Part shown: positions 1 through 51,187 of the stretch, piece after piece
How the letters are laid out: each line of letters opens with the position of its first letter
Numbering within the stretch: the stretch's first letter is position 1
Assembly: GCF_000003605.2 (NCBI RefSeq)
Contig: NW_003126881.1
Coordinates: 1-51,187, forward strand
DNA length: 51,187 bases
Reading direction: 5' to 3'
From: Saccoglossus kowalevskii
Taxonomy: Eukaryota > Hemichordata > Enteropneusta > Harrimaniidae
Notes under the pieces: generated by a model
The model's input: only the letters and a program-made list of their open reading frames with translations
What the model was told of the DNA's origin: nothing
Databases searched by the model: none
Translations under genes and position numbers: made by a program

Positions 1-416
1 GGATAAGAAATTTGCGAAATTAAAGAGATAAGCTATTGATGTGCTGGATCAGATGACTCAGTCAATTAGACAGGAATTTGAGGATCTAGACATAAAACAC
101 CTTGTGGCACTATAAAAAAAACGCAAAATACTATTACATAAAATACCAACGAATAAGGCATGTGACATCGAATCACATAATTGCGGTCCGAGTCACATTG
201 TGTTCGTATGGCGATGCAATAATTGTGTGTTCTGCAAAATTGAACTGCTACACCTGTCACAGCCAAACATGCAACTATTTCAAGAATAAATTTAGCAGGT
301 GCAAATTCGCAAATTCGCAAATATGGGGATGTGCAGAACCCAACGACTTATTCAATTATCCAGGTAAATAGGAATTCGTAAAAAAATTAGATGGCACAGG
401 ATGAAGATGTACTTAA

Positions 417-473
417 GACTCCGTGGCCTAATGGATAAGGCGTCTGACTTCGAATCAGATGATTGCGGGGTCG
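417..473 (+). pseudogene. tRNA-Arg(UCG) pseudogene, T arm deleted
   Basis: The sequence is consensus to the variable loop (with A44 to T), then a 16-nt deletion joins GCGGGG directly to TCG. The T loop, B box and half of the acceptor strand are gone, so neither promoter nor fold can work. The same deletion recurs at 46030 and 46582. Confidence 0.9.
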
Positions 474-964
474 TATGGGCTGCTACGATTAAGTTTTCTG
501 CAAGATTGCACAAGAACACCAGCTGCACTCAATAAAAAAATACGTCGTGAATACTGTTAGCGGATAAGAATTTGCGAAATTAAAGAGATAACATTGATGT
601 GCTGGATCAGATGACTCAGTCAATTAGACAGGAATTTTAGGATCTAGACATAAAACACCTTGTGGCACTATAAAAAAAACGCAAAACACTATTACATAAG
701 ATACCAATGAATAAGGCATGTGACATCGAATCACTTAATTGCGGTCCCAGTCACATCGTGGTCGTATGGCGACGCAATAATTGTGTGTTCTGCAAAATTG
801 AACTGCTACACCGTCACAGCCAAACATGCAACTATTTCAAGAATAAATTCACCAGGTGCTAATTCGCAAATATGGGGATGTGCAGAACCCAACGACTTAT
901 TCAATTATCCAGGTAAATAGGAATTCGTAAAAAATTAGATGGCACAGGATGAAGATGTACTTAA

Positions 965-1036
965 GACTCCGTGGCCTAATGGATAAGGCGTCTGACTTCG
1001 AATCAGAAGATTGCGGTTCGAGTCCCGTCGGGGTGG
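965..1036 (+). pseudogene. tRNA-Arg(UCG), 72 nt, damaged T stem
   Basis: One G of the T stem is missing (GCGG-TTCGAGT) and C72 is G, so G1 has no partner. The anticodon arm is intact. Probably inactive. Confidence 0.75.
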
Positions 1037-1530
1037 TATTGGCTGCTACGATTTAGTTTTCTGCAAGATTGCACAAGAACACCAGCAGCACTCAATAAAA
1101 AATACATGGTGAATACTATTAGCGGATAAGAATTTGCGAAATTAAAGAGATAACATTGATGTGCTGGATCAGATGAGTCAGTCAATTATACAGGAATTTT
1201 AGCATCCAGACATATAAAACACCTTGTGGCACTATAAAAAAAACGCAAAATACTATTACATAAAATACCAACGAATAAGGCATGTGACATCGAATCATAT
1301 AATTGCGGTCCGAGTGACATTGTGGTCATATGGCGATGCAATAATTGTGTGTTCTACAAAATTGAACTGCTACACCTGTCACAGCCAAACATGCAACTAT
1401 TTCAAGAATAAATTTAGCAGGTGCAAATTCGCAAATATGGGGATGTGCAGAACCCAACGACTTATTCAACTATCCAGGTAAATAGGAATTCGTAAAAAAA
1501 TTAGATGGCACAGGATGAAGATGTACTTAA

Positions 1531-1603
1531 GACTCCGTGGTCTAATGGATAATGCGTCTGACTTCGAATCAGAAGATTGCGGGTTCGAGTCCCGTCGGGG
1601 TCG
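1531..1603 (+). tRNA. tRNA-Arg(UCG), D-stem variant
   Basis: C11 is T (wobble with G24) and G23 is T (mismatch with C12). The rest is consensus, including the B box and terminator. The D stem is weakened, so activity is uncertain. Confidence 0.65.
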
Positions 1604-1623
1604 TATGGGCTGCTACGATTTAG

Positions 1624-1627
1624 TTTT
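1624..1627 (+). terminator. RNA polymerase III T4 terminator (representative)
   Basis: TTTT in GATTTAGTTTTCTGC starts 21 nt after G73. The motif is kept after essentially every half A tRNA, and is five T at about 50637. The aligned position in half B reads GTGTTC, so only half A transcripts would stop here. Confidence 0.8.
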
Positions 1628-1759
1628 CTGCAAGATTGCACAAGAACACCAGCAGCACTCAATAAAAAAATACATGGTGAATACTATTAGCGGATAAGAA
1701 TTTGAGAAATTAAAGAGATAACATTGATGTGCTGGATCAGATGAGTCAGTCAATTATAC

Positions 1760-2054
1760 AGGAATTTTAGGATCTAGACATATAAAACACCTTGTGGCAC
1801 TATAAAAAAAACGCAAAATACTATTGCAACATAAAATACCAACGAATAAGGCATGTGACATCGAATTACATAATTGCGGTCCGAGTGACATTGTGGTCAT
1901 ATGGCGATGCAATAATTGTGTGTTCTGCAAAATTGAACTGCTACACCTGTCACAGCCAAACATGCAACTATTTCAAGAATAAATTTACCAGGTGCTAATT
2001 CGCAAATATGGGGATGTGCAGAACCCAACGACTTATTCAACTATCCAGGTAAAT
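1760..2054 (+). repeat. Half B of the dimeric unit, type B1 (representative)
   Basis: This 295-bp block aligns to half A along its length. AGGATCTAGAC aligns with AGGATGAAGAT, TTGTGGC with CCGTGGC, GAATAAGGC with GGATAAGGC, ATTGCGGTCCGAGT with ATTGCGGGTTCGAGT, GTTCTGCAAAATTG with TTTTCTGCAAGATTG, and GATGTGCAGAACCC with GATGTGCTGGATCA. Type B1 is marked by GTGACATTGTGGTCATAT followed by GGCGATGC. The block contains no intact gene. Confidence 0.88.
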
Positions 2055-2108
2055 AGGAATTCGTAAAAAAATTAGATGGCACAGGATGAAGATGTACTTA
2101 AGACCCCG

Positions 2109-2119
2109 TGGCCTAATGG
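2109..2119 (+). promoter_or_regulatory. Internal A box of tRNA-Arg (representative)
   Basis: TGGCCTAATGG at residues 8-19 matches the eukaryotic RNA polymerase III A-box pattern TRGYNNANNGG. It is present in most array copies. Copies with C12 to A, G10 to C or G19 changes have a damaged box. Confidence 0.85.
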
Positions 2120-2152
2120 ATAAGGCGTCTGACTTCGAATCAGAAGATTGCG

Positions 2153-2163
2153 GGTTCGAGTCC
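2153..2163 (+). promoter_or_regulatory. Internal B box of tRNA-Arg (representative)
   Basis: GGTTCGAGTCC at residues 52-62 matches the TFIIIC-binding B-box pattern GGTTCGANTCC exactly. T55C, C56T, C61T/G and G53A copies elsewhere in the array depart from it. Confidence 0.88.
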
Positions 2164-2358
2164 CGTCGGGGTCGTATGGGCTGCTACGATTTAGTTTTCT
2201 GCAAGATTGCACAAGAACACCAGCTGCACTCAATAAAAAAATACGTCGTGAATACTGTTAGCGGATAAGAATTTGCGAAATTAAAGAAATAACATTGATG
2301 TGCTGGATCAGATGACTCAGTCAATTTGACAGGAATTTTAGGATCTAGACACATAAAA

Positions 2359-2467
2359 CACCTTGTGGCACTATAAATAAAACGCAAAATACTATTACAT
2401 AAAATACCAACGAATAAGGCATGTGACATCGAATCACATAATTGCGGTCCGAGTCACATTGTGGTCA
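2359..2467 (+). pseudogene. tRNA-Arg pseudogene of half B (representative)
   Basis: About 109 nt align to the tRNA of half A. The 5' part CACCTTGTGGC matches GACTCCGTGGC, then about 40 nt of A-rich sequence interrupt the D arm. The 3' part restarts at AATAAGGC. The anticodon arm is a perfect hairpin, stem TGTGA (2422-2426) with TCACA (2434-2438) and loop CATCGAA, so the TCG triplet remains but U33 has become A33. One G of the T stem is missing, T55 is C and the T arm no longer pairs. Part of the acceptor still pairs (A2-T71, C3-G70, C4-G69). The TTTT terminator equivalent reads GTGTTC. A dead tRNA copy is the simplest reading. One such element is present in nearly every unit. Confidence 0.85.
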
Positions 2468-2677
2468 TATGGCGATGCAATAATTGTGTGTTCTGCAAAA
2501 TTGAACTGCTACACCTGTCACAGCCAAACATGCAACTATTTCAAGAATAAATTTAGCAGGTGCAAATTCGCAAAATCGCAAATATGGGGATGTGCAGAAC
2601 CCAACGACTTATTCAATTATCCAGGTAAAAAGGAATTCGTAAAAAAATTAGATGGCACAGGATGAAGATGTACTTAA

Positions 2678-2750
2678 GACTCCGTGGCCTAATGGATAAG
2701 GCGTCTGACTTCGAATCAGAAGATTGCGGGTTCGAGTTCCGTCGGGGTCG
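2678..2750 (+). tRNA. tRNA-Arg(UCG), B-box C61T
   Basis: C61 is T, giving a G53-U61 wobble and a B box ending TTC instead of TCC. Otherwise consensus. It is shared with the adjacent copy at 3249, which arose by duplication of one 571-bp unit. Confidence 0.7.
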
Positions 2751-3248
2751 TATTGGCTGCTACGATTTAGTTTTCTGCAAGATTGCACAAGAACACCAGC
2801 AGCACTCAATAAAAAAATACGTGGTGAATACTATTAGCGGATAAGAATTTGCGAAATTAAAGAGATAACATTGATGTGCTGGATCAGATGAGTCAGTCAA
2901 TTAGACAGGAATTTTAGGATCTAGACATATAAAACACATTGTGGCACTATAAAAAAAACGCAAAATACTATTACAACATAAAATACCAACGAACAAGGCA
3001 TGTGACATCGAATCACATAATTGCGGTCCGAGTGACATTGTGGTCATATGGCGATGCAATAATTGTGTGTTCTGCAAAATTGAACTGCTACACCTGTCAC
3101 AGCCAAACATGCAACTATTTCAAGAATAAATTTAGCAGGTGCTAATTCGCAAATATGGGGATGTGCAGAACCCATCGACTTATTCAATTATCCAGGTAAA
3201 TAGGAATTCGTAAAAAAATTAGATGGCACAGGATGAAGATGTACTTAA

Positions 3249-3321
3249 GACTCCGTGGCCTAATGGATAAGGCGTCTGACTTCGAATCAGAAGATTGCGG
3301 GTTCGAGTTCCGTCGGGGTCG
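3249..3321 (+). tRNA. tRNA-Arg(UCG), B-box C61T
   Basis: Identical to the copy at 2678, including C61T, and its flanks are also the same. It is a recent tandem duplicate. Confidence 0.7.
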
Positions 3322-3819
3322 TATTGGCTGCTACGATTTAGTTTTCTGCAAGATTGCACAAGAACACCAGCAGCACTCAATAAAAAAATACGTGGTGAAT
3401 ACTATTAGCGGATAAGAATTTGCGAAATTAAAGAGATAACATTGATGTGCTGGATCAGATGAGTCAGTCAATTAGACAGGAATTTTAGGATCTAGACATA
3501 TAAAACACATTGTGGCACTATAAAAAAAACGCAAAATACTATTACAACATAAAATACCAACGAACAAGGCATGTGACATCGAATCACATAATTGCGGTCC
3601 GAGTGACATTGTGGTCATATGGCGATGCAATAATTGTGTGTTCTGCAAAATTGAACTGCTACACCTGTCACAGCCAAACATGCAACTATTTCAAGAATAA
3701 ATTTAGCAGGTGCTAATTCGCAAATATGGGGATGTGCAGAACCCATCGACTTATTCAATTATCCAGGTAAATAGGAATTCGTAAAAAAATTAGATGGCAC
3801 AGGATGAAGATGTACTTAA

Positions 3820-3892
3820 GACTCCGTGGCCTAATGGATAAGGCGTCTGACTTCGAATCAGAAGATTGCGGGTTCGAGTCCCGTCGGGGTCG
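3820..3892 (+). tRNA. tRNA-Arg(UCG), consensus
   Basis: Exact array consensus; only a U4-G69 wobble in the acceptor. The 3' flank is TATGGGCTGC and the terminator is intact. Confidence 0.92.
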
Positions 3893-4396
3893 TATGGGCT
3901 GCTACGATTTAGTTTTCTGCAAGATTGCACAAGAACACCAGCAGCACTTAATAAAAAAATACGTCGTGAATACTGTTAGCGGATAAGAATTTGCGAAATT
4001 AAAGAGATAACATTGATGTGCTGGATCAGATAACTCAGTCAATTAGAAAGAAATTTTAGGATCTAGACACATAAAACACCTTGTGGCACTATAAAAAAAA
4101 AACGCAAAATACTATTACATAAAATACCAACGAATAAGGCATGTGACATCGAATCACATAATTGCGGTCCGAGTCACATTGTGGTCATATGGCGATGCAA
4201 TAATTGTGTGTTCTGCAAAATTGAACTGCTACACCTGTCACAGCCAAACATGCAACTATTTCAAGAATAAATTTAGCAGGTGCAAATTCGCAAATTCGCA
4301 AATATGGGGATGTGCAGAACCCAACGACTTATTCAATTATCAAGGTAAATAGGAATTTGTAAAAAATTAGATGGCACAGGATGAAGATGTACTTAA

Positions 4397-4469
4397 GACT
4401 CCGTGGCCTAATGGATAAGGCGTCGGACTTCGAATCAGAAGATTTCGGGTTCGAGTCCCGTCGGGGTTG
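4397..4469 (+). tRNA. tRNA-Arg(UCG), degenerate stems
   Basis: T29 is G (mismatch with A41), G49 is T (U-U with T65) and C72 is T (G1-U72 wobble). Three stems are weakened. Probably decaying. Confidence 0.55.
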
Positions 4470-4625
4470 TATGGGCTGCTACGATTTAGTTTTCTGCAAG
4501 ATTCCACAAGAACACCACCAGCACTCAATAAAAGAATACATGGTGAATACTATTAGCGGATAAGAATTTGCGAAATTAAAGAGATAACATTGATGTGCTG
4601 CATCAGATGAGTCAGTCAATTAGAC

Positions 4626-4720
4626 AGGAATTTTAGTATCTAGACATATAAAACACCTTGTGGCACTATAAAAATGGGGATGTACAGAACCCAACGACTT
4701 TTTCAATTATCCAGGTAAAT
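4626..4720 (+). repeat. Half B reduced to 95 bp by internal deletion
   Basis: Half B jumps from CTATAAAA straight to ATGGGGATGTACAG at about 4672, losing about 200 bp including the whole pseudo-tRNA body. The two flanking tRNA genes are only 371 bp apart as a result. The A-run probably gave the microhomology. Confidence 0.85.
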
Positions 4721-4767
4721 AGGAATTCGTAAAAAAATTAGATGGTACAGGATGAAGATGTACTTAA

Positions 4768-4840
4768 GACTCCGTGGCCTAATGGATAAGGCGTCTGACT
4801 TCGAATCAGAAGATTGCGGGTTCGAGTCCCGTCGGGGTCG
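4768..4840 (+). tRNA. tRNA-Arg(UCG), consensus
   Basis: Exact consensus with TATTGGCTGC flank and intact terminator. The 5' flank is shortened upstream by the half B deletion at 4626-4720. Confidence 0.92.
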
Positions 4841-5338
4841 TATTGGCTGCTACGATTTAGTTTTCTGCAAGATTGCACAAGAACACCAGCAGCACTCAAT
4901 ACAAAAATACATGGTGAATACTATTAGCGGATAAAAATTTGCAAAATTAAAGAGATAACATTGATGAGCTGGATCAGATGAGTCAGTCAATTATACAGGA
5001 ATTTTAGGATCTAGACATATAAAACACCTTGTGGCACTATAAAAAAAACGCAAAATACTATTGCAACATAAAATACCAACGAATAAGGCATGTGACATCG
5101 AATTACATAATTGCGGTCCCAGTGACATTGTGGTCATATGGCGATGCAATAATTGTGTGTTCTGCAAAATTGAACTGCTACACCTGTCACAGCCAAACAT
5201 GCAACTATTTCAAGAATAAATTTACCAGGTGCTAATTCGCAAATATGGGGATGTGCAGAACCCAACGACTAATTCAACTATCCAGGTAAATAGGAATTCG
5301 TAAAAAAATTAGATGGCACAGGATGAAGATGTACTTAA

Positions 5339-5411
5339 CACTCCGTGGCCTAATGGATAAGGCGTCTGACTTCGAATCAGAAGATTGCGGGTTCGAGTCC
5401 CGTCGGGGTCG
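5339..5411 (+). tRNA. tRNA-Arg(UCG), G1C
   Basis: The first base is C instead of G, so pair 1-72 is C-C. All other positions are consensus. Confidence 0.65.
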
Positions 5412-5567
5412 TATTGGCTGCTTCGATTTAGTTTTCTGCAAGATTGCACAAGAACACCAGCAGCACTCAATAAAAAAATACATGGTGAATACTATTAGCG
5501 GATAAAAATTTGCAAAATTAAAGAGATAACATTGATGAGCTGGATCAGATGAGTCAGTCAATTAGAC

Positions 5568-6255
5568 AGGAATTTTAGGATCTAGACATATAAAACACCT
5601 TGTGGCACTATAAAAAAACGCAAAATACTATTACAACATAAAATACCAACGAATAAGGCATGTGACATCGAATCACATAATTGCGGTCCGAGTTACATCG
5701 TGGTCGTATGGCGACGCAATAATTGTGTGTTCTGCAAAATTGAACTGCTACACCTGTCACAGCCAAACATGAAACTATTTCAAGAATAAATTCACAAGGT
5801 GCTAATTCGCAAATTCGATTTAGTTTTCTGCAAGATTGCACAAGAACACCAGCTGCACTCAATAAAAAAATACGTCGTGAATACTGTTAGCGGATAAGAA
5901 TTTGCGAAATTAAAGAAATAACATTGATGTGCTGGATCAGATGACTCAGTCAATTTGACAGGAATTTTAGGATCTAGACACATAAAACACCTTGTGGCAC
6001 TATAAAAAAAAAACGCAAACTACTATTACATAAAATACCAACGATAAGCATGTGACATCGAATCACATAATTGCGGTCCGAGTCACATAGTGGTCATATG
6101 GCGATGCAATAATTGTGTGTTCTGCAAAATTGAACTGCTACACCTGTCACAGCCAAACATGCAACTATTTCAAGAATAAATTTAGCAGGTGCAAATTCGC
6201 AAATATGGGGATGTGCAGAACCCAACGACTTATTCAATTATCCAGGTAAATAGGA
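5568..6255 (+). repeat. Fused unit with the tRNA gene deleted
   Basis: Half B starting at 5568 runs to GCAAATTCG and then joins, at about 5811-5820, the half A 3' flank GATTTAGTTTTCTGC. The 5' flank and the entire tRNA of one half A are missing, and a second half B follows from about 5960. Short TTCG/TACG homology at the junction fits slippage or unequal exchange. The neighbouring tRNAs are 960 bp apart. Confidence 0.85.
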
Positions 6256-6298
6256 ATTCGTAAAAAAATTAGATGGCACAGGATGAAGATGTACTTAA

Positions 6299-6371
6299 GA
6301 CTCCGTGGCCTAATGGATAAGGCGTCTGACTTCGAATCAGAAGATTGCGGGTTCGAGTGCCGTCGGGGTCG
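6299..6371 (+). tRNA. tRNA-Arg(UCG), B-box C61G
   Basis: C61 is G, which breaks the conserved G53-C61 pair and the B box. Flank TATTTGCTGC. The same variant recurs at 30269 and 42612. Confidence 0.6.
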
Positions 6372-6866
6372 TATTTGCTGCTACGATTTAGTTTTCTGCA
6401 AGATTGCACAAGAACACCAGCTGCACTCAATAAAAAAATACGTCGTAAATACTGTTAGCGAATAAGAATTTGCGAAATTAAAGAGATAACATTGATGTGC
6501 TGGATCTGATGAGTCAGTAAATTAGACAGGAATTTTAGGATCTAGACATATAAAAGACCTTGTGGTACTATAAAAAAAACGCAAAATACTATTACATAAA
6601 ATACCAACGAATGAGGCATGTGACATCGAATCACATAATTGCGGTCCGAGTGACATTGTGGTCATATGGCGATGCAATAATTGTGTGTTCTGCAAAATTG
6701 AACTGCTACACCTGTCACAGCCAAACATGCAACTATTTCAAGAATAAATTTAGCAGGTGCAAATTCGCAAATATGGGGATGTGCAGAACCCAACGACTTA
6801 TTCAATTATCCAGGTAAATAGGAATTCGTAAAAAAAATAGATGGCACAGGATGAAGATGTACTTAA

Positions 6867-6939
6867 GACTCCGTGGCCTAATGGATAAGGCGTCTGACTT
6901 CGAATCAGAAGATTGCGGGTTCGAGTCCCGTCGGGGTCG
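6867..6939 (+). tRNA. tRNA-Arg(UCG), consensus
   Basis: Exact consensus with TATTGG flank and intact TTTT. Confidence 0.92.
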
Positions 6940-7431
6940 TATTGGCTGCTACGATTTAGTTTTCTGCAAGATTGCACAAGAACACCAGCTGCACTCAATA
7001 AAAAAATACGTCGTAATACTGTTAGCGGATAAGAATTTGCGAAATTAAAGAGATAACATTGATGTGCTGGATCAGATGAGTCAGTCAATTAGACAGGAAT
7101 TTTAGGATCTAGACATAAAACACCTTGTGGCACTATAAAAAAACGCAAAACACTATTACATAAAATACCAACGAATAAGGCATGTGACATCGAATCACAT
7201 AATTGCGGTCCGAGTGACATTGTGGTCATATGGCGATGCAATAATTGTGTGTTCTGCAACAGTGAACTGCTACACCTGTCACAGCCAAACATGCAACTAT
7301 TTCAAAAATAAATTTACCAGGTGCAAATTCGCAAATATGGGGATGTGCAGAACCCAACGACTTATTCAATTATCCAGGTAAATAGGAATTCGTAAAAAAA
7401 ATTAGATGGCACAGGATGAAGATGTACTTAA

Positions 7432-7504
7432 GACTCCGTGGCCTAATGGATAAGGCGTCTGACTTCGAATCAGAAGATTGCGGGTTCGAGTCTCGTCGGG
7501 GTCG
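7432..7504 (+). tRNA. tRNA-Arg(UCG), C62T
   Basis: C62 is T, giving a G52-U62 wobble and a slightly altered B box. The fold is otherwise complete. Confidence 0.78.
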
Positions 7505-7660
7505 TACTTGCTGCTACGATTTAGTTTTCTGCAAGATTGCACAAGAACACCAGCTGCACTCAATAAAAAAATACGTCGTAAATACTGTTAGCGGATAAGA
7601 ATTTGCGAAATTAAAGAGATAACATTGATGTGCTGGATCAGCTGAGTCAGTCAATTAGAC

Positions 7661-7949
7661 AGGAATTTTAGGATCTAGACATAAAACACCTTGTGGCACT
7701 ATAAAAAAACGCAAAACACTATTACATAAAATACCAATGAATAAGGCATGTGACATCGAATCACATAATTGCGGTCCGAGTCACATCGTGGTCGTATGGC
7801 GACGCAATAATTGTGTGTTCTGCAAAATTGAACTGCTACACCTGTCACAGCCAAACATGCAACTATTTCAAGAATAAATTCACCAGGTGCTAATTCGCAA
7901 ATATGGGGATGTGCAGAACCCAAAGACATATTCAATTATCCAGGTAAAT
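7661..7949 (+). repeat. Half B, type B2 (representative)
   Basis: This subtype of the diverged half has GTCACATCGTGGTCGTATGG followed by CGACGC, CCAATGAATAAGG and TTCACCAGGTGCTAATTC. It alternates with B1 along the array and often carries the short 'GACATAAAACACC' leader instead of 'GACATATAAAACACC'. Confidence 0.82.
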
Positions 7950-7997
7950 AGGACTTCGTAAAAAAAATTAGATGGCACAGGATGAAGATGTACTTAA

Positions 7998-8070
7998 AAC
8001 TCCGTGGCCTAATGGACAAGGCGTCTGACTTCGAATCAGAAGATTGCGGGTTCGAGTCCCGTCCGGGTCG
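7998..8070 (+). tRNA. tRNA-Arg(UCG), acceptor variants
   Basis: G1 is A (no pair with C72), U20a is C, and G67 is C (C6-C67 mismatch). Two acceptor pairs are lost. Confidence 0.55.
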
Positions 8071-8562
8071 TATTGGCTGCTACGATTTAGTTTTCTGCAA
8101 GATTGCACAAGAACACCAGCTGCACTCAATAAAAAAATGCGTCGTGAATACTGTTAGCGGATAAGAATTTGCGAAATTAAAGAGATAACATTGATGTGCT
8201 GGATCAGATGAGTCAGTCAATTAGACAGGAATTTTACGATCTAGACATAAAACACCTTGTGGCACTGTAAAAAAACGCAAAACACTATTACATAAAATAC
8301 CAATGAATAAGGCATGTGACATCGAATCACATAATTGCGGTCCGAGTCACATCGTGGTCGTATGGCGACGCAATAATTGTGTGTTCTGCAAATTGAACTG
8401 CTACACCTGTCACAGCCAAACATGCAACTATTTCAAGAATAAATTCACCAGATGCTAATTCGCAAATATGGGGATGTGCAGAACCCAACGACATAGTCAA
8501 TTATCCAGGTAAATAGGAATTCGTAAAAAAAATTAGATGGCACAGGATGAAGATGTACTTAA

Positions 8563-8635
8563 TACTCCGTGGCCTAATGGATAAGGCGTCTGACTTCGAA
8601 TCAGAAGATTTCGGGTTCGAGTCCCGTCGGGGTCG
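8563..8635 (+). tRNA. tRNA-Arg(UCG), G1T G49T type
   Basis: The start reads TACTCCG and the T stem begins TCGGG, so pairs 1-72 and 49-65 are lost. The 3' flank has ACAAAAACATCAGC. The same combination occurs at 9139, 49404 and 49979. Confidence 0.6.
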
Positions 8636-11952: not shown

Positions 11953-12025
11953 TACTCCGTGGCCTAATGGATAAGGCGTCTGACTTCAAATCAGAAGATT
12001 TTGGATTCGAGTCCCGTCGGGGTCG
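11953..12025 (+). tRNA. tRNA-Arg-derived copy, anticodon UCA
   Basis: The anticodon loop reads CTTCAAA, so residues 34-36 are TCA, which would read the UGA stop codon. Further changes are G1T, G49T, C50T and G53A. They remove pair 1-72, damage the T stem and change B-box G53, so expression and charging are doubtful. The flanking A37-A38 and anticodon stem are intact. It is not a selenocysteine tRNA, since arm lengths are the ordinary arginine type. Confidence 0.6.
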
Positions 12026-12518: not shown

Positions 12519-12591
12519 TACTCCGTGGCCTAATGGATAAGGCGTCTGACTTCAAATCAGAAGATTTCGGATTCGAGTCCCGTTGGGGTCG
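12519..12591 (+). tRNA. tRNA-Arg-derived copy, anticodon UCA, hybrid
   Basis: Residues 1-53 match the UCA type (G1T, G36A, G49T, G53A). C66T and everything downstream match the unit at 9712. The gene is therefore a recombinant with the switch between residues 53 and 66. The B box is GATTCGAGTCC, with G53 lost. Confidence 0.6.
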
Positions 12592-17023: not shown

Positions 17024-17096
17024 AACTCCTTGGCCTAATGGATAAGGCGTCTGACTTCGAATCAGAAGATTGCGGGTTCGAGTCCCGTCGGGGTCG
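17024..17096 (+). tRNA. tRNA-Arg(UCG), G1A G7T
   Basis: Both ends of the 5' acceptor strand are changed (A1-C72 and U7-C66 mismatches). The same pair of changes occurs at 29155 and 41504, together with GATTGAACAAG downstream. Confidence 0.55.
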
Positions 17097-17252
17097 TATT
17101 GGCTGCTACGATTTAGTTTTCTGCAAGATTGAACAAGAACACCAGCTGCACTCAATAAAAAAATACGTCGTGAATACTGTTAGCGGATAAGAATGTGCGA
17201 AATTAAAGAGATAAAATTGATGTGCTGGATCAGATGAGTCAGTCAATTAGAC

Positions 17253-17476
17253 AGGAATTTTAGGATCTAGACATATAAAACACCTTGTGGCACTATAAAA
17301 AAAAAACGCAAAATACTATTACATAAAATACCAACGAATAAGGCATGTGACATCGTATCACATAATTGCGGTCCGAGTCACACTGTGGTCGTATGGCGAT
17401 GCAATAATTGTGTGTTCTAATTCGCAAATATGGGGATGTGCCGAACCCAACGACTTATTCAATTATCCAGGTAAAT
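17253..17476 (+). repeat. Half B with internal deletion of about 70 nt
   Basis: GTGTGTTCT joins AATTCGCAAATATGG directly at about 17417, so the segment from GCAAAATTGAAC to the CAGGTGCT region is lost. The same junction occurs at about 18493 and 32368. Confidence 0.85.
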
Positions 17477-17523
17477 AGGAATTGGTAAAAAAATTAGATG
17501 GCACAGGATGAAGATGTACTGAT

Positions 17524-27640: not shown

Positions 27641-27713
27641 GACTCCGTGGCCTAAAGGATACGGCGTCTGACTTCGAATCAGAAGATTGCGGGTTCGAGT
27701 CCTGTCGGGGTCG
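27641..27713 (+). tRNA. tRNA-Arg(UCG), D-arm changes
   Basis: T16A, A22C (mismatch with U13) and C63T. Leader CACAGTATG. Confidence 0.6.
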
Positions 27714-27869
27714 TATTGGCTGCTACGATTTAGTTTTCTGCAAGATTGCACAAGAACACCAGCTGCACTCAATAAAAAAATACGTCGTAAATACTGTTAG
27801 CGGATAAGAATTTGCGAAATTAAAGAGATAACATTGATGTGCTGGATCAGATGAGTCAGTCAATTAGAC

Positions 27870-27970
27870 AGGAATTTTAGGATCTAGATCAAGAATAAAT
27901 TCACCAGGTGCTAATTCGCAAATATGGGGATGTGCAGAACCCAACGACATATTCAATTATCCAGGTAAAT
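27870..27970 (+). repeat. Half B reduced to 101 bp by internal deletion
   Basis: GGATCTAGA joins TCAAGAATAAATTCACC at about 27889, removing the whole pseudo-tRNA. This brings the flanking tRNAs to 378 bp apart. It is independent of the 4626 deletion, because the endpoints differ. Confidence 0.85.
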
Positions 27971-28018
27971 AGGAATTCGTAAAAAAAATTAGATGGCACA
28001 GTATGAAGATGTACTTAA

Positions 28019-40938: not shown

Positions 40939-41011
40939 TACTCCGTGGCCTAATGGATAAGGCGTCTGACTTCAAATCAGAAGATTTCGGATTCGAGTCC
41001 CGTCGGGGTCG
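40939..41011 (+). tRNA. tRNA-Arg-derived copy, anticodon UCA, hybrid
   Basis: The loop CTTCAAA gives anticodon TCA, with G1T, G49T and G53A as at 12519. C66 is normal and the 3' flank is TATAGGCTGCTGCG, the flank of the 16457 and 28590 cassette. The switch lies between residue 53 and the gene end. Expression is doubtful because of the G53A B-box change. Confidence 0.6.
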
Positions 41012-41576: not shown

Positions 41577-42618
41577 TATTGGCTGCTACGATTTAGTTTT
41601 CTGCAAGATTGAACAAGAACACCAGCTGCACTTAATAAATACTGTTAGCGGATAAGAATTTGCGAAATTAAAGAGATAACATTGATGTGCTGGATCAGAT
41701 GAGTCAGTAATTATACAGGAATTTTAGGATCTAGACATATAAAACACCTTGTGGTACTATAAAAAAACAACGCAAAATACTATTACATAAAATACCAACG
41801 AATAAGGCATGTGACAACGAATCACATAATTGCGGTCCGAGTGACATTGTGGTCATATGGCGATGCAATAATTGTGTGTTCTGCAAAATTGAACTGCTAC
41901 ACCTGTCACAGCCAAACATGCAACTATTTCAAGAATAAATTTAGCAGGTGCAAAATCGCAAATATGGGGATGTGCAGAACCCAACGACTTATTCAATTAT
42001 CCAGGTAAATAGGAATTCGTAAAAAAATTAGATGGCACAGGATGAAGATGTACTTAAGACTCCGTGGCCTAATGGATAAGGCGTCTGACTTCGAATCAGA
42101 AGATTGCGGGTTCGAGTCCCGTCGGGGTCGTATTGGCTGCTACGATTTAGTTTTCTGCAAGATTGAACAAGAACACCAGCTGCACTTAATAAATACTGTT
42201 AGCGGATAAGAATTTGCGAAATTAAAGAGATAACATTGATGTGCTGGATCAGATGAGTCAGTAATTATACAGGAATTTTAGGATCTAGACATATAAAACA
42301 CCTTGTGGTACTATAAAAAAACAACGCAAAATACTATTACATAAAATACCAACGAATAAGGCATGTGACAACGAATCACATAATTGCGGTCCGAGTGACA
42401 TTGTGGTCATATGGCGATGCAATAATTGTGTGTTCTGCAAAATTGAACTGCTACACCTGTCACAGCCAAACATGCAACTATTTCAAGAATAAATTTAGCA
42501 GGTGCAAAATCGCAAATATGGGGATGTGCAGAACCCAACGACTTATTCAATTATCCAGGTAAATAGGAATTCGTAAAAAAATTAGATGGCACAGGATGAA
42601 GATGTACTTAAGACTCCG
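41511..42618 (+). repeat. Two adjacent near-identical 554-bp units
   Basis: 41511-42064 and 42065-42618 share the rare marks GATTGAACAAG, GTCAGTAATTATACAG, GTGGTACTAT, AAACAACGC, GACAACGAATC and GCAAAATCGC. The boundary falls inside the tRNA after residue 7, because the first copy alone has G1A and G7T. Confidence 0.85.
42058..42130 (+). tRNA. tRNA-Arg(UCG), consensus
   Basis: Exact consensus, with the GATTGAACAAG flank of the preceding unit. Confidence 0.92.
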
Positions 42619-42684
42619 TGGCCTAATGGATAAGGCGTCTGACTTCGAATCAGAAGATTGCGGGTTCGAGTGCCGTCGGGGTCG
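42612..42684 (+). tRNA. tRNA-Arg(UCG), B-box C61G
   Basis: Third copy of the C61G type with TATTTGCTGC flank. Confidence 0.6.
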
Positions 42685-43176
42685 TATTTGCTGCTACGAT
42701 TTAGTTTTCTGCAAGATTGCACAAGAACACCAGCTGCACTCAATAAAAAAATACGTCGTGAATACTGTTAGCGGATAAGAATTTGCGAAATTAAAGAGAT
42801 AACATTGATGTGCTGGATCAGATGAGTCAGTCAATTAGACAGGAATTTTAGGATCTAGACATAAAACACCTTGTGGCACTATAAAAAAACGCAAAACACT
42901 ATTACATAAAATACCAACGAATAAGGCATGTGACATCGAATCACATAATTGCGGTCCGAGTCACATTGTGGTCATATGGCGATGCAATAATTGTGTGTTC
43001 TGCAAAATTGAACTGCTACACCTGTCACAGCCAAACATGCAACTATTTCAAGAATAAATTTACCAGGTACAAATTCGCAAATATGGGGATGTGCAGAACC
43101 CAACGACTTATTCAATTATCCAGGTAAATAGGAATTCGTAAAAAAATTAGATGGCACAGGATGAAGATGTACTTAA

Positions 43177-43249
43177 AACTCCGTGGCCTAATGGATAAGG
43201 CGTCTGACTTCGAATCAGAAGATTGCGGGTTCGAGTCCCGTAGGGGTCG
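43177..43249 (+). tRNA. tRNA-Arg(UCG), G1A C66A
   Basis: Both terminal acceptor pairs are lost (1-72 and 7-66). The flank has CTGCTATGATT. Confidence 0.52.
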
Positions 43250-43741
43250 TATGGGCTGCTATGATTTAGTTTTCTGCAAGATTGCACAAGAACACCAGCT
43301 GCACTCAATAACAAAATACATCGTGAATACTGTTAGCGGATAAGAATTTGCGAAATTAAAGAGATAACATTGTTGTGCTGGATCAGATGACTTAGTCAAT
43401 TAGACAGGAATTTTAGGATCTAGACATAAAACACCTTGTGGCACTATAAAAAAACGAAAAACACTATTACATAAAATACCAACGAATAAGGCATGTGACA
43501 TCGAATCACATAATTGCGGTCTGAGTCACATTGTGGTCATATGGCGATGCAATAATTGTGTGTTCTGCAAAATTGAACTGCTACACCTGTCACAGCCAAA
43601 CATGCAACTATTTCAAGAATAAATTTACCAGGTACAAATTCGCAAATATGGGGATGTGCAGAACCCAACGACTTATTCAATTATCCAGGTAAATAGGAAT
43701 TCGTAAAAAAATTAGATGGCACAGGATGAAGATGTACTTAA

Positions 43742-43814
43742 GACTCCGTGGCCTAATGGATAAGGCGTCTGACTTCGAATCAGAAGATTGCGGGTCCGAG
43801 TCCCGTCGGGGTCG
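43742..43814 (+). tRNA. tRNA-Arg(UCG), T55C
   Basis: Only T55C. Stems are complete but U55 and the B box are changed. Confidence 0.58.
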
Positions 43815-44317
43815 TATGGGCTGCTATGATTTAGTTTTCTGCAAGATTGCACAAGAACACCAGCTGCACTCAATAAAAAAATACGTCATGAATACTGTTA
43901 GCGGATAAGAATTTGCGAAATTAAAGAGATAACATTGATGTGCTGGATCAGATGAGTCAGTCAATTAGACAGGAATTTTAGGATCTAGACTTATAAAACA
44001 CCTTGTGGCACTATAAAAAAAACGCAAAATACTATTACATAAAATACCAAGGAATAAGGCATGTGACATCGAATCACATAATTTTGGTCCGAGTCACATT
44101 GTGGTCATATGGCGATGCAATAATTGTGTGTTCTGCAAAATTGAACTGCTACGCCTGTCACAGCCAAACATGCAACTATTTCAAGAATAAATTTAGCAGG
44201 TGCTAATTCGCAAATTTGCAAATATGGGGATGTGCAGAACACAACGACTTATTCAATTATCCAGGTAAATAGGAATTCGTAAAAAAATTAGATGGCACAG
44301 GATGAAGATGTACTTAA

Positions 44318-44390
44318 GACTCCGTGGCCTAATGGATAAGGCGTCTGACTTCGAATCAGAAGATTGCGGGTCCGAGTCCCGTTGGGGACG
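44318..44390 (+). tRNA. tRNA-Arg(UCG), T55C C66T T71A
   Basis: T71A gives an A2-A71 mismatch and C66T a wobble. T55C is also present. Confidence 0.5.
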
Positions 44391-44885
44391 TATGGGCTGC
44401 TACGATTTAGTTTTCTGCAAGATTGCACAAGAACACCAGCTGCACTCAATAAAACAATACGTCGTGAATACTGTTAGCGGATAAGAATTTGCGAAAATAA
44501 AGAGATAACATTGATGTGCTGGATCAGATGAGTCAGTCAATTAGACAGGAATTTTGGGATCTAGACATATAAAACACCTTGTGGCACTATAAAAAAAACG
44601 CAAAACACTATTACATAAAATACCAACGAATAAGGCATGTGACATCGAATCACATAATTGCGGTCCGAGTCACATTGTGGTCATATGGCGATGCAATAAT
44701 TGTGTGTTCTGCAAAATTGAACTGCTACACCTGTCACAGCCAAACATGCAACTATTTCAAGAATAAATTTACCAGGTACAAATTCGCAAATATGGGGATG
44801 TGCAGAACCCAACGACTTATTCAATTATCCAGGTAAATAGGAATTCGTAAAAAAATTAGATGGCACAGGATGAAGATGTACTTAA

Positions 44886-44958
44886 GACTCTGTGGCCTAA
44901 TGGATAAGGCGTCTGACTTCGAATCAGAAGATTGCGGGTCCGAGTCCCGTCGGGGTCG
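44886..44958 (+). tRNA. tRNA-Arg(UCG), C6T T55C
   Basis: Same changes as at 31401 and 33052. Confidence 0.55.
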
Positions 44959-45461
44959 TATGGGCTGCTACGATTTAGTTTTCTGCAAGATTGCACAAGA
45001 ACACCAGCTGCACTCAATAAAAAAATACGTCGTGAATACTGTTAGCGGATAAGAATTTGCGAAATTAAAGAGATAACATTGATGAGCTGGATCAGATGAG
45101 TCAGTCAATTAGACAGGAATTTTAGGATCTAGACATATAAAACACCTTGTGGCACTATAAAAAAAACGCAAAATACTATTACATAAAATACCAAGGAATA
45201 AGGCATGTGACATCGAATCACATAATTTTGGTCCGAGTCACATTGTGGTCATATGGCGATGCAATAATTGTGTGTTCTGCAAAATTGAACTGCTACGCCT
45301 GTCACAGCCAAACATGCAACTATTTCAAGAATAAATTTAGCAGGTGCAAATTCGCAAATTCGCAAATATGGGGATGTGCAGAACCCAACGACTTATTCAA
45401 TTATCCAGGTAAATAGGAATTCGTAAAAAAAGTAGATGGCACAGGATGAAGATGTACTTAA

Positions 45462-45534
45462 GACTCCGTGGCCTAATGGATAAGGCGTCTGACTTCGAAT
45501 CAGAAGATTGCGGGTCCGAGTCCCGTTGGGGTCG
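45462..45534 (+). tRNA. tRNA-Arg(UCG), T55C C66T
   Basis: Sister of the copy at 44318 without T71A. The following AATAAAACAATACG is shared. Confidence 0.55.
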
Positions 45535-46029
45535 TATGGGCTGCTACGATTTAGTTTTCTGCAAGATTGCACAAGAACACCAGCTGCACACAATAAAACA
45601 ATACGTCGTGAATACTGTTAGCGGATAAGAATTTGCGAAATTAAAGAGATAACATTGATGTGCTGGATCAGATGAGTCAGTCAATTAGACAGGAATTTTG
45701 GGATCTAGACATATAAAACACCTTGTGGCACTATAAATAAAACGCAAAATACTATTACATAAAATACCAACGAATAAGGCATGTGACATCGAATCACATA
45801 ATTTTGGTCCGAGTCACATTGTGGTCATATGGCGATGCAATAATTGTGTGTTCTGCAAAATTGAACTGCTACACCTGTCACAGGCAAACACGCAACTATT
45901 TCAAGAATAAATTTAGCAGGTGCAAATTCGCAAATATGGGGATGTGCAGAACCCAACGACTTATTCAATTATCCAGGTAAATAGGAATTCATAAAAAAAT
46001 TAGATGGCACAGGATGAAGATGTACTTAA

Positions 46030-46086
46030 GACTCCGTGGCCTAATGGATAAGGCGTCTGACTTCGAATCAGAAGATTGCGGGGTCG
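46030..46086 (+). pseudogene. tRNA-Arg(UCG) pseudogene, T arm deleted
   Basis: A 16-nt deletion joins GCGGGG to TCG, as at 417. The B box is absent. Confidence 0.9.
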
Positions 46087-46581
46087 TATGGGCTGCTACG
46101 ATTTAGTTTTCTGCAAGATTGCACAAGAACACCAGCTGCACTCAATAAAAAAATACGTCGTGAATACTGTTAGCGGATAAGAATTTGCGAAATTAAAGAG
46201 ATAACATTGATGTGCTGGATCAGATGACTCAGTCAATTAGACAGGAATTTTAGGATCTAGACATATAAAACACCTTGTGGCACTATAAAAAAAATGCAAA
46301 ATACTATTACATAAAATACCAACGAATAAGGCATGTGACATCGAATCACATAATAGCGGTCCGAGTCACATTGTGGTCATATGGCGATGCAATAATTGTG
46401 TGTTCTGCAAAATTGAACTGCTACACCTGTCACAGCCAAACATGCAACTATTTCAAGAATAAATTTAGCAGGTGCAAATTCGCAACTATGGGGATGTGCA
46501 GAACCCAACGACTTATTCAATTATCCAGGTAAATAGGAATTCGTAAAAAAATTAGATGGCACAGGATGAAGATGTACTTAA

Positions 46582-46638
46582 GACTCCGTGGCCTAATGGA
46601 TAAGGCGTCTGACTTCGAATCAGAAGATTGCGGGGTAG
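46582..46638 (+). pseudogene. tRNA-Arg(UCG) pseudogene, T arm deleted
   Basis: Same 16-nt deletion, plus C72A (GGGGTAG). It is adjacent to the 46030 copy. Confidence 0.9.
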
Positions 46639-47129
46639 TATGGGCTGCTACGATTTAGTTTTCTGCAAGATTGCACAAGAACACCAGCTGCACTCAATAA
46701 AAAATACGTCGTGAATACTGTTAGCGGAAAAGAATTTGCGAAATTAAAGAGATAACATTGATGTGCTGGATCAGATGACTCAGTCAATTAGACAGGAATT
46801 TGAGGATCTAGACATAAAACACCTTGTGGCACTATAAAAAAACGCAAAACACTATTACATAAAATACCAATGAATAAGACATGTGACATCGAATCACATA
46901 ATTGCGGTCCGAGTCACATCGTGGTCGTATGGCGACGCAATAATTGTGTGTTCTGCAAAATTGAACTGCTACACCTGTCACAGCCAAACATGCAACTATT
47001 TCAAGAATAAATTCACCAGGTGTTAATTCGCAAATATGGGGATGTGCAGAACTCAAAGACATATTCAATTATCCAGGTAAATAGGAATTCGTAAAAAAAT
47101 TAGATGGCACAGTATGAAGACGTACTTAA

Positions 47130-47208
47130 GACTCCGTGGCCTAATGGATAAGGCGTCTCACTCTGACTTCGAATCAGAAGATTGCGGGTTCGAGTCCCGT
47201 CGGGGTCG
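47130..47208 (+). pseudogene. tRNA-Arg(UCG), 79 nt, six-base insertion
   Basis: GTCTCACTCTGAC shows a 6-nt near-duplication at the 5' side of the anticodon stem. A normal anticodon arm can still form if the extra bases bulge out. T arm and B box are intact. The 3' flank is the left-end type ATGGTGAATACTATT. Confidence 0.6.
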
Positions 47209-47706
47209 TATTGGTTGGTACGATTTAGTTTTCTGCAAGATTGCACAAGAACACCAGCTGCACTCAATAAAAAAATACATGGTGAATACTATTAGCGGAT
47301 AAGAATTTGCGAAATTAAAGAGATAACATTGATGTGCTGGATCAGATGAGTCAGTCAATTAGACAGGAATTTTAGGATCCAGACATATAAAACACCTTGT
47401 GGCACTATAAAAAAAACGCAAAATACTATTACAACATAAAATACCAACGAATAAGGAATGTGACATCGAATCACATAATTGCGGTCCGAGTGACATTGTG
47501 GTCATATGGCGGTGCAATAATTGTGTGTTCTGCAAAATTGAACTGCTACACCTGTCACAGCCAAACATGCAACTATTTCAAGAATAAATTTACCAGGTGC
47601 TAATTCGCAAATATGGGGATGTGCAGAACCCAACGACTTATTCAACTATCCAGGTAAATAGGAATTCGTAAAAAAATTAGATGGCACAGGATGAAGATGT
47701 ACTTAA

Positions 47707-47769
47707 GACTCCGTGGCCTAATGGATAAGGCGTCTGACTTCGAATCAGAAGATTGCGGGGTCGGGGTCG
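47707..47769 (+). pseudogene. tRNA-Arg(UCG) pseudogene, 10-nt T-arm deletion
   Basis: GCGGGG is followed by TCGGGGTCG. The T loop and 5' half of the B box are missing, with different endpoints from the 16-nt deletions. Confidence 0.88.
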
Positions 47770-48260
47770 TATGGGCTGCTACGATTTAGTTTTCTGCAAG
47801 ATTGCACAAGAACACCAGCTGCACTCAATAAAAAAATACGTCGTGAATACTGTTAGCGGATAAGAATTTGCGAAATTAAGAGATAACATTGATGTGCTGG
47901 ATCAGATGACTCAGTCAATTAGACAGGAATTTGAGGATCTAGACATAAAACACCTTGTGGCACTATAAAAAAAACGCAAAATACTATTACATAAAATACC
48001 AACGAATAAGGCATTTGACATCGAATCACATATTGCGGTCCGAGTCACATTGTGTTCGTATGGCGATGCAATAATTGTGTGTTCTGCAAAATTGAACTGC
48101 TACACCTGTCACAGCCAAACATGCAACTATTTCAAGAATAAATTTACCAGGTGCTAATTCGCAAATATTGGGATGTACAGAACCCAACGACTTATTCAAT
48201 TATCCAGGTAAATAGGAATTCGTAAAAAAATTAGATGGCACAGGATGAAGATGTACTTAA

Positions 48261-48333
48261 GACTCCGTGGCCTAATGGATAAGGCGTCTGACTTCGAATC
48301 AGAAAATTGCGGGGTCGAGTCCCGTAGGGGTCG
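48261..48333 (+). tRNA. tRNA-Arg(UCG), G45A T54G C66A
   Basis: The T loop starts GTC instead of TTC, losing U54 and the reverse-Hoogsteen pair with A58. C66A breaks pair 7-66. Probably inactive. Confidence 0.48.
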
Positions 48334-48837
48334 TATGAGCTGCTACGATTTAGTTTTCTGCAAGATTGCACAAGAACACCAGCTGCACTCAATAAAAAAA
48401 TACGTCGTGAATACTGTTAGCGGATAAGAATTTGCGAAATTAAAGAGATAACATTGATGTGCTGGATCAGATGAGTCAGTCAATTAGACAGGAATTTTAG
48501 GATCTAGACATATAAAACGCCTTGTGGCACTATAAAAAAAAACGCAAAATACTATTACATAAAATACCAACGAATAAGGCATGTGACATCGAATCACATA
48601 ATTGCGGTCCGAGTCACACTGTGGTCGTATGGCGATGCAATAATTGTGTGTTCTGCAAAATTGAACTGCTACACCTGTCACAGCCAAACATGCAACTATT
48701 TCAAGATTAAATTTAGCAGGTGCAAATTCGCAAATTCGGAAATATGGGGATGTGCAGAACCCAACGACTTATTCAATTATCCAGGTAAATAGGAATTCGT
48801 AAAAAAATTAGATGGCACAGGATGAAGATGTACTTAA

Positions 48838-48910
48838 GACTCCGTGGCCTAATGGATAAGGCGTCTGACTTCGAATCAGAAGATTGCGGGTTCGAGTCCC
48901 GTCGGGGTCG
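48838..48910 (+). tRNA. tRNA-Arg(UCG), consensus
   Basis: Exact consensus with TATGGGCTGC flank and intact terminator. Confidence 0.92.
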
Positions 48911-49403
48911 TATGGGCTGCTACGATTTAGTTTTCTGCAAGATTGCACAAGAACACCAGCTGCACTCAATAAAAAAATACGTCGTGAATACTGTTAGCGG
49001 ATAAGAATTTGCGAAATTAAAGAGATAACATTGATGTGCTGGATCAGATGAGTCAGTCAATTAGACAGGAATTTTAGGATCTAGACATATAAAACACCTT
49101 GTGGCACTATAAAAAAACGCAAAATACTATTACATAAAATACCAATGAATATGGAATGTGACATCGAATCACATAATTGCGGTCCGAGTCACATCGTGGT
49201 CGTATGGCGACGCAATAATTGTGTGTTCTGCAAAATTGAACTGCTACACCTGTCACAGCCAAACATGCAACTATTACAAGAATAAATTTAGCAGGTGCAA
49301 ATTCGCAAATATGGGGATGTACAGAACCAAACGACTTATTCAATTATTCAGTAAATAGGATTTCGTAAAAAAATTAGATGGCACAGGATGAAGATGTACT
49401 TAA

Positions 49404-49476
49404 TACTCCGTGGCCTAATGGATAAGGCGTCTGACTTCGAATCAGAAGATTTCGGGTTCGAGTCCCGTCGGGGTCG
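49404..49476 (+). tRNA. tRNA-Arg(UCG), G1T G49T type
   Basis: Same tRNA and ACAAAAACATCAGC flank as at 8563. Confidence 0.6.
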
Positions 49477-49978
49477 TATTGGCTGCTACGATTTAGTTTT
49501 CTGCAAGATTGCACAAAAACATCAGCTGCACTCAATAAAAAAAATACGTCGTGAATACTGTTAGCGGATAAGAATTTGCGAAATTAAAGAGATAACATTG
49601 ATGTGCTGGATCAGATGAGTCAGTCAATTAGACAGGAATTTTAGGATCTAGACATATAAAACACCTTGTGGCACTATAAAAAAAAACCGCAACATACTAT
49701 TACAACATAAAATACCAACGAATAAGGCATGTGACATCGAATCACATAATTGCGGTCCGAGTGACATTGTGGTCATATGGCGATGCAATAATTGTGTGTT
49801 CTGCAACATTGAACTGCTACACCTGTCACAGCCAAACATGCAACTATTTCAAAAATAAATTTACCAGGTGCAAATTCGCAAATATGGGGATGTGCAGAAC
49901 CCAACGACTTATTCAATTATCCAGGTAAATAGGAATTCGTAAAAAAAATTAGATGGCACAGGATGAAGATGTACTTAA

Positions 49979-50051
49979 TACTCCGTGGCCTAATGGATAA
50001 GGCGTGTGACTTCGAATCAGAAGATTTCGGGTTCGAGTCCCGTCGGGGTCG
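49979..50051 (+). tRNA. tRNA-Arg(UCG), G1T C28G G49T
   Basis: As at 9139 but also C28G, a G28-G42 mismatch in the anticodon stem. Half B has the same C28G change together with G42C, so this copy has half of that paired exchange. Confidence 0.55.
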
Positions 50052-50543
50052 TATTGGCTGCTACGATTTAGTTTTCTGCAAGATTGCACAAAAACATCAG
50101 CTGCACTCAATAAAAAAATACGTCGTGAATACTGTTAGCGGATAAGAATTTGCGAAATTAAAGAGATAACATTGATGTGCTGGATCAGATGAGTCAGTCA
50201 ATTAGACAGGAATTTTAGGATCTAGACATAAAACACCTTGTGGCACTATAAAAAAACGCAAAGCACTATTACATAAAATACCAATGAATAAGGCATGTGA
50301 CATCGAATCACATAATTGCGGTCCGAGTCACATTGTGGTCGTATGGCGACGCAATAATTGTGTGTTCTGCAAAATTGAACTGCTACACCTGTCACAGCCA
50401 AACATGCAACTATTTCAAGAATAAATTTAGCAGGAGCAAATTCGCAAATATGGGGATGTGCAGAACCCAACGACTTATTCAATTATCCAGGTAAATAGGA
50501 ATTCGTAAAAAAAATAGATGGCACAGGATGAAGATGTACTTAA

Positions 50544-50616
50544 GACTCCGTGGCCTAATGGATAAGGCGTCTGACTTCGAATCAGAAGATTGCGGGTTCG
50601 AGTCCCGTCGGGGTCG
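50544..50616 (+). tRNA. tRNA-Arg(UCG), consensus, T5 terminator
   Basis: Exact consensus. The downstream terminator is TTTTT rather than TTTT. Confidence 0.92.
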
Positions 50617-51107
50617 TATTGGCTGCTACGATTTAGTTTTTCTGCAAGATTGCACAAGAACACCAGCTGCACTCAATAAAAAAATACGTCGTAATACTGT
50701 TAGCGGATAAGAATTTGCGAAATTAAAGAGATAACATTGATGTGCTGGATCAGATGAGTCAGTCAATTAGACAGGAATTTTAGGATCTAGACATAAAACA
50801 CCTTGTGGCACTATAAAAAACGCAAAACACTATTACATAAAATAACAATGAATAAGGCATGTGACATCGAATCACATAATTGCGGTCCGAGTCACATTGT
50901 GGTCGTATGGCGATGCAATAATTGTGTGTTCTGCAAAATTGAACTGCTACACCTGTCACAGCCAAACATGCAACTATTTCAAGAATAAATTTAGCAGGTG
51001 CAAATTCGCAAATATGGGAATGTACAGAACCCAACGACTTATTCAATTATCCAGGTAAATAGGAATTCGTAAAAAAATTAGATGGCACAGGATGAAGATG
51101 TACTTAA

Positions 51108-51181
51108 GACTCCATGGCCTAATAGAAAAGGCGTAATGACTTCGAATCAGAAGATTGCGGGTTCGAGTCCCGTCGGGGTCG
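51108..51181 (+). pseudogene. tRNA-Arg(UCG), 74 nt, degenerate last copy
   Basis: G7A, G18A and U20a to A, plus an insertion giving GCGTAATGAC in place of GCGTCTGAC, which breaks the anticodon stem. The T arm and 3' acceptor strand are consensus. The next bases, CATTGA, differ from the usual TATTGG, then the window ends. Confidence 0.6.
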
Positions 51182-51187
51182 CATTGA

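Follow-up and report, generated by a model that had tools for sequence, protein, structure and literature searches.

The window analysed here, the whole 51,187 bp of contig C1937, is filled by head-to-tail units that hold a tRNA-Arg(UCG) gene in their first half (A) and a decayed second copy of the same block in their second half (B); the contig contains no flanking sequence. Our analysis confirmed that a tRNA-Arg(UCG) gene has been amplified into a long tandem array with an A-B dimer as its unit. We consider it likely that the array is a tandemly amplified, concertedly evolving nuclear tRNA-Arg(UCG) family, one of several arrays of single isoacceptors in this genome.

A dimeric array of tRNA-Arg(UCG) units

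Decomposition of the window with nhmmer gave 91 unit starts and a partial first unit, hence approximately 92 units. ARAGORN predicted 86 tRNAs, 81 of them Arg(TCG), and the Rfam tRNA model yielded 91 matches over its gathering score; all predictions and matches were on the plus strand. These results agree with an earlier sequence-only reading of the window, according to which about 92 head-to-tail units fill it. The five other ARAGORN labels (three SeC, one Gly and one Gln) are positioned at unit starts and belong to mutated copies of the arrayed gene. The consensus unit is 565 bp long. Most unit intervals (84 of 90) measured 548-578 bp, and the remaining six were 371, 378, 499, 499, 500 and 960 bp (Table 1).

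Two further contigs, C237 (36,627 bp) and C3006 (16,305 bp), consist entirely of the same array, and the three contigs together comprise ~104 kb and 185 units. We defined full-length units as 540-580 bp and dropped the 17 units outside this range before counting, which left 168. The assembly has 572 Mb in 4,830 contigs, in which many stretches are N, so genome-wide counts cover the readable part only.

In the consensus unit, the tRNA occupies positions 1-73 and is followed by TTTT at position 94, and a tRNA relic lies at approximately 305-363. The alignment of the consensus A and B halves scored 119, whereas 300 dinucleotide shuffles gave at most 40. With the tRNA excluded, the alignment scored 59; the shuffle maximum was 41, and none of 500 shuffles reached 59. 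Identical aligned positions numbered 46 of 59 in the tRNA part and 109 of 170 outside it. We built a tree from the A and B pieces of the three contigs (168 of each), and a single branch with a support of 1.0 split all B from all A pieces. The mean identity of sampled pairs was 0.970 within A, 0.962 within B and 0.723 between A and B. The similarity of A and B thus extends past the tRNA, and each half has its own clade. The unit is therefore a genuine dimer, in which two diverged half-units alternate and have been amplified together as in a dimeric higher-order satellite. The sequence-only reading had described the unit as a tRNA gene plus a diverged second copy of the same block, which the alignment and the tree bear out, and it had named a failure of the halves to align outside the tRNA as evidence to the contrary; the halves do align there.

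The two halves differ in their transcription signals. T runs serve as terminators for RNA polymerase III (Pol III), and TTTT was present within 40 nt past the A tRNA in 167 of the 168 full-length units, whereas a T4 run occurred in the B half of a single unit. Neither box A nor box B, searched for with motifs taken from general knowledge, was found in any of the 168 B halves.

We counted an A gene as intact if it combined a cloverleaf, box A, box B (same motifs), the anticodon TCG and a T4 run. By this rule, 61 of the 168 units in the three contigs carry a fully intact tRNA-Arg(UCG) gene. In the window the number is 26 of 84, or 27 of 84 with a looser rule that omits the terminator. The statement of the sequence-only reading that each unit holds one tRNA gene is thus correct as to position, but a fully intact gene is present only in this fraction. 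The commonest tRNA allele is a perfect tRNA and was found in 44 of the 168 units.

Anticodons other than TCG were found in 11 full-length units, in eight of them TCA, which would pair with UGA. Three TCA copies lie in the window (the one listed in Table 1 and those at 12519-12591 and 40939-41011) and five in C237. Stem pairs are broken in seven of the eight, and one copy in C237 retains all 20 checked pairs.

Turnover of units and diversity of copies

The mean difference between units was ~5%, and nearest neighbours within a contig differed by ~1.5-2.1%. Among 14 unit pairs that differed by at most 0.35%, 11 were between contigs and one consisted of adjacent units. Moreover, four odd junctions of the window were found again in C237 and/or C3006 (Table 1). 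Near-identical units in different contigs and recurring junctions are expected if unequal exchange and conversion operate throughout a single large array. Neighbouring units were slightly more alike than distant ones: the median distance to the nearest relative was 19 units in C1937, 10 in C237 and 5.5 in C3006, compared with 25, 18 and 7.3 in shuffled order (fractions of shuffles with a distance as low: 0.047, 0.001 and 0.185, respectively). Local homogenisation is therefore present but weak. A larger higher-order repeat was considered and rejected; no collinear run of three or more units with at most 1.2% difference occurred within any contig, and one occurred between contigs. As this 3-unit stretch was the only one, no contig is merely a duplicate of another. 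The observed/expected ratio of CpG in the array was 1.01-1.03, i.e. CpG was not depleted.

The mean pairwise diversity of the tRNA (0.0338) was similar to that elsewhere in the unit (0.0347; permutation p 0.485), and distinct derived alleles per site were more numerous in the tRNA (0.918 vs 0.638). Compared with expectations from the spacer spectrum, the tRNA had 28 pair-breaking alleles (expected 24.3), 14 pair-keeping alleles (7.8) and 25 loop alleles (21.1). For alleles present in two or more units, the respective numbers were 14 (13.6), 9 (4.1) and 11 (11.5). We found no double compensatory change in 20 stem pairs over 168 units. Overall, gene and spacer are equally diverse, and residual constraint is only weakly hinted at. 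The best reading of these data is that single copies largely drift under at most weak constraint, and that most of them are individually dispensable.

A longer time scale is provided by contig C3484, which carries a well-formed, dispersed tRNA-Arg(UCG) gene with flanks unlike the array unit. Two positions that form a pair, 5 and 68, are the only differences between the A consensus and this gene; B is 81% identical to the gene over the aligned part. The near-identity of A, set against the 81% of B, suggests long-term constraint on A. Array-level selection and repeated re-amplification from intact copies each fit both time scales and are indistinguishable here.

Several observations weigh against drift of single copies, or against the wider picture of one concertedly evolving array. 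Split by CpG, diversity is lower in the tRNA than in the rest of the unit, both at CpG sites (0.0566 vs 0.0904) and at non-CpG sites (0.0274 vs 0.0303), comparisons made without a significance test. The B relic (0.0517) is more diverse than the A tRNA, and the excess of pair-keeping alleles is a hint of constraint on individual copies. The perfect commonest allele could reflect recent amplification instead of array-level selection. Finally, the three contigs could be partly diverged haplotypes, although only a single stretch of three units is collinear.

Among 40-bp stretches of the unit, diversity was lowest at positions 373-412, in the B half (permutation p 0.01, uncorrected); windows of 30, 60 and 73 bp gave p values of 0.05, 0.05 and 0.02, also uncorrected.

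Arrays elsewhere in this genome and in other organisms

We searched the readable genome with a 31-base Arg(UCG) pattern and obtained 106 exact matches, 105 of them in the three array contigs. The C3484 gene, in which the pattern is present, accounts for the remaining match. A search with B-half DNA gave 187 first-look candidates, a number close to the 185 units; 40 of the 187 were scored, and all of these lay in the array contigs. The pattern search thus found no dispersed copies of the kind expected from a tRNA-derived short interspersed nuclear element (SINE); signatures of retrotransposition were not looked for. A spacer pattern had no matches in collections of virus and prokaryote contigs, whose content says little here. 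Matches of 2 kb of the window to 16 bacterial plasmid records were short and, judged by query position, were tRNA matches; they were discarded.

To survey other contigs, we sampled 57 pieces from 55 contigs, six of them numbered next to the array contigs and the others arbitrary. We excluded twenty contigs in which the readable sequence was shorter than 450 bases. Arrays of a single isoacceptor were present in 4 of the 35 counted contigs (Table 1). Another of the 35, C3200, showed one tRNA-Pro in ~500 readable bases, and we did not class it as an array. A tRNA-family search of the genome, in which 63 of 25,204 first-look candidates were scored, added arrays of tRNA-Thr and tRNA-Cys and a probable one of tRNA-Trp. 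The sequence-only reading had regarded the Arg(UCG) array as exceptional among animals. The arrays for Ser, His, Glu, Ile, Thr and Cys found here, and those in the literature described below, lend this view no support.

One unit from each of eight arrays was compared, with lengths of 237-680 bp. When the tRNA was aligned to the rest of its unit, only the Arg and Thr units held further tRNA-like copies above shuffles. The tRNA-Thr unit contains two such additional stretches and is a second case of a gene with relics. Half-against-half alignment of other units scored 118 for Thr (shuffle maximum 23) and 25 for Ile (24). The spacers of different arrays were not clearly alike: of 15 pairs, two scored above the highest of 30 mononucleotide shuffles, with margins of 1 and 2 points, and the Ser piece in this comparison was short. 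Tandem repeats without a predicted tRNA made up at least 90% of the stretch read in 11 of the 35 contigs, an example being a 42-bp repeat that fills 10 kb of C1936.

Tandem tRNA arrays are already known from other animals, and the present array belongs to the kind found in Hydractinia, with one tRNA gene repeated many times head to tail, similar spacers and further tRNA arrays in the same genome. Hydractinia has tandem arrays of single isoacceptors with tens to hundreds of copies in a genome rich in tandem repeats (PMC11067881). In contrast to the array described here, with its ~5% mean unit difference, the copies of this cnidarian are nearly identical or highly similar, and the passages compared do not mention a gene-plus-relic dimer (PMC11067881). 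Nematostella has >17,000 tRNA genes and pseudogenes, and 89% of its tRNA genes (tDNAs) are clustered (PMC2888827). The clusters of Nematostella and teleosts resemble our case in very large tDNA numbers, sizes of at least 50 and the existence of homogeneous clusters as a class; they were described at survey level, and the passages compared do not describe the structure of repeat units (PMC2888827). The SYY cluster of Arabidopsis likewise combines tandem tDNA repeats with tRNA-like pseudogene copies and is redundant with dispersed genes, but it is a plant cluster with two isoacceptors per unit and tissue-specific expression (PMC12308677) and has 27 units (PMC12652284). In Entamoeba, homogenisation of the tandem tRNA arrays is also attributed to concerted evolution; in this protist a unit can hold as many as five tRNA genes, nearly all tRNA genes are arrayed, and the units are mostly uniform (PMC2652664). 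The human variable number tandem repeat at 1q23.3 is an animal tandem tRNA repeat as well, yet its unit measures 7.3 kb and holds five tRNA genes, its alleles have 9-43 units, and it carries a CTCF site (PMC4041453). Compared with these systems, the gene-plus-relic dimer and the near-neutrality of single copies seem less usual, though no search aimed at published cases of either was made.

The mitochondrial contig gives an indication of the kind of animal. COX1 was found once, on the 17-kb contig C4830, where TGA encodes Trp, with predicted genes for tRNA-Leu, tRNA-Gln and tRNA-Ala nearby. In Hydractinia, mitochondrial tRNAs are limited to one tRNA-Met and one tRNA-Trp (PMC11067881). The three tRNA genes beside COX1 differ from this set, so the contig looks bilaterian and not cnidarian-like, and the animal is probably a bilaterian unless this contig is of foreign origin. 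Open frames on C4830 read as nad1 and cox2, the latter with further support; cox1 lies on the strand opposite to them. AGG is missing from the three frames, and in cox1, ATA often stands at positions where isoleucine is usual (positions from general knowledge).

Table 1. Features of the Arg(UCG) window (C1937 coordinates) and tRNA arrays on other contigs
Feature	Location	Strand	Evidence or remark
Tandem array, ~92 units of ~565 bp	1..51187	+	ARAGORN, Rfam, nhmmer decomposition
Representative complete unit	2102..2677	+	unit boundaries
tRNA-Arg(TCG) gene, A half of representative unit	2102..2174	+	72.6 bits vs Rfam tRNA, joint best in window
TTTT, probable Pol III terminator ~20 nt past tRNA	2195..2198	+	sequence; role of T run from general knowledge
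B-half tRNA relic, unit preceding representative unit	1841..1899	+	without recognisable 5' acceptor arm, box A or box B consensus; sequence and alignment
Shortened 371-bp unit	4397..4767	+	junction seen once more, in C237
960-bp unit with internal duplication (unit position 477 joined to 85)	5339..6298	+	junction also once in C237
Shortened 499/500-bp unit, one of three in window (other starts 18101, 31976)	17024..17523	+	junction three times in C3006
Shortened 378-bp unit	27641..28018	+	junction also twice in C237, once in C3006
tRNA copy with anticodon TCA, ARAGORN label SeC, three broken stem pairs	11953..12025	+	ARAGORN, stem-pair check
Ser(AGA) tRNA array	C500		contig sample
His(GTG) tRNA array	C2500		contig sample
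Glu(CTC) tRNA array	C3111		contig sample
Ile(AAT) tRNA array	C550		contig sample
Thr(TGT) tRNA array	C4103		tRNA-family search
Cys(GCA) tRNA array	C926, C682, C4368		tRNA-family search
Two Trp(CCA) genes 462 bp apart, probable array	C4826		tRNA-family search

Origin and significance of the array

We propose that a tRNA gene with its spacer (~280 bp) was duplicated in tandem, and that the 5' acceptor arm, the two internal promoter boxes and the T-run terminator then disappeared from the second copy. The pair of gene and relic would have become the unit of amplification and spread by unequal exchange and/or conversion. The intact copies, approximately one third, would be transcribed by Pol III and yield ordinary tRNA-Arg(UCG). 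Redundancy would allow single copies largely to drift, while the intact consensus would persist through turnover or selection at the level of the array.

Alternatively, the array may have been selected for a larger dosage of CGA- or CGN-decoding tRNA, for example in secretory tissue. Such an adaptation would be in line with the 61 units that look functional by their sequence and with the hints of residual constraint, and it has been proposed for the Arabidopsis SYY cluster (PMC12308677). We nevertheless regard it as unlikely. The arrays of this genome comprise several isoacceptors and so do not point to a special requirement for Arg. One survey makes the case that the variation in tDNA copy number has no explanation in codon usage (PMC2888827), and selection against broken copies was not clear. 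It is possible that the array supplies CGA-decoding tRNA, but this supply is not needed to explain the pattern, because a dispersed well-formed gene exists and the array shows no clear copy-level constraint.

The main role of the array could also be chromosomal, in a centromere, pericentromere or heterochromatin, with the tRNA as a passenger. The sequence-only reading had compared the array to a centromere-style satellite and suggested heterochromatin, insulator or selfish roles, for which our data give at most indirect hints. The dimeric unit of satellite-like size, the equal overall diversity of gene and spacer, the contig ends inside the array and the frequency of non-tRNA tandem repeats among the sampled contigs would suit a structural satellite. 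We consider this role improbable: with spacers that are not clearly alike, the tRNA gene is the common factor of the different arrays, the CpG ratio gives no sign of heavy germline methylation, and an animal centromere of ~104 kb would be a small one. Similarly improbable is a selfish tRNA-derived element, SINE or satellite, without gene function. Its copies would decay near-neutrally, as observed, but there was no sign of dispersed copies in the readable genome, the sole pattern match outside the array contigs is accounted for by a well-formed tRNA gene with flanks unlike the array unit, and the consensus is a complete tRNA followed by a T run. An assembly artefact, or a collapsed or expanded repeat, could account for contigs that begin and end inside the array but is very improbable given the ~5% mean unit difference, the absence of long collinear duplications between or within contigs, the variants and junctions common to multiple units and the like organisation of other tRNAs; for the Hydractinia arrays, too, the authors argue against an artefact (PMC11067881).

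Concerted evolution of an amplified tRNA-Arg(UCG) family remains our preferred explanation. A broader generalization can be offered only tentatively, and we think it rather doubtful: that a bilaterian-looking animal, independently of cnidarians, keeps a large share of its tRNA genes in satellite-scale arrays, in which selection would maintain only intact fractions while single copies drift like satellite monomers, and whose pool includes UGA-reading anticodons, one with an intact cloverleaf. The part concerning drift is weakened by the CpG-split diversities and the pair-keeping excess, which hint at copy-level constraint.

Our findings add satellite-scale tRNA arrays for several isoacceptors in an apparently non-cnidarian animal. 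They also offer a measurable case of array-level versus copy-level selection, in which copies are about equally diverse in gene and spacer, and the consensus stays a perfect tRNA while B has decayed.

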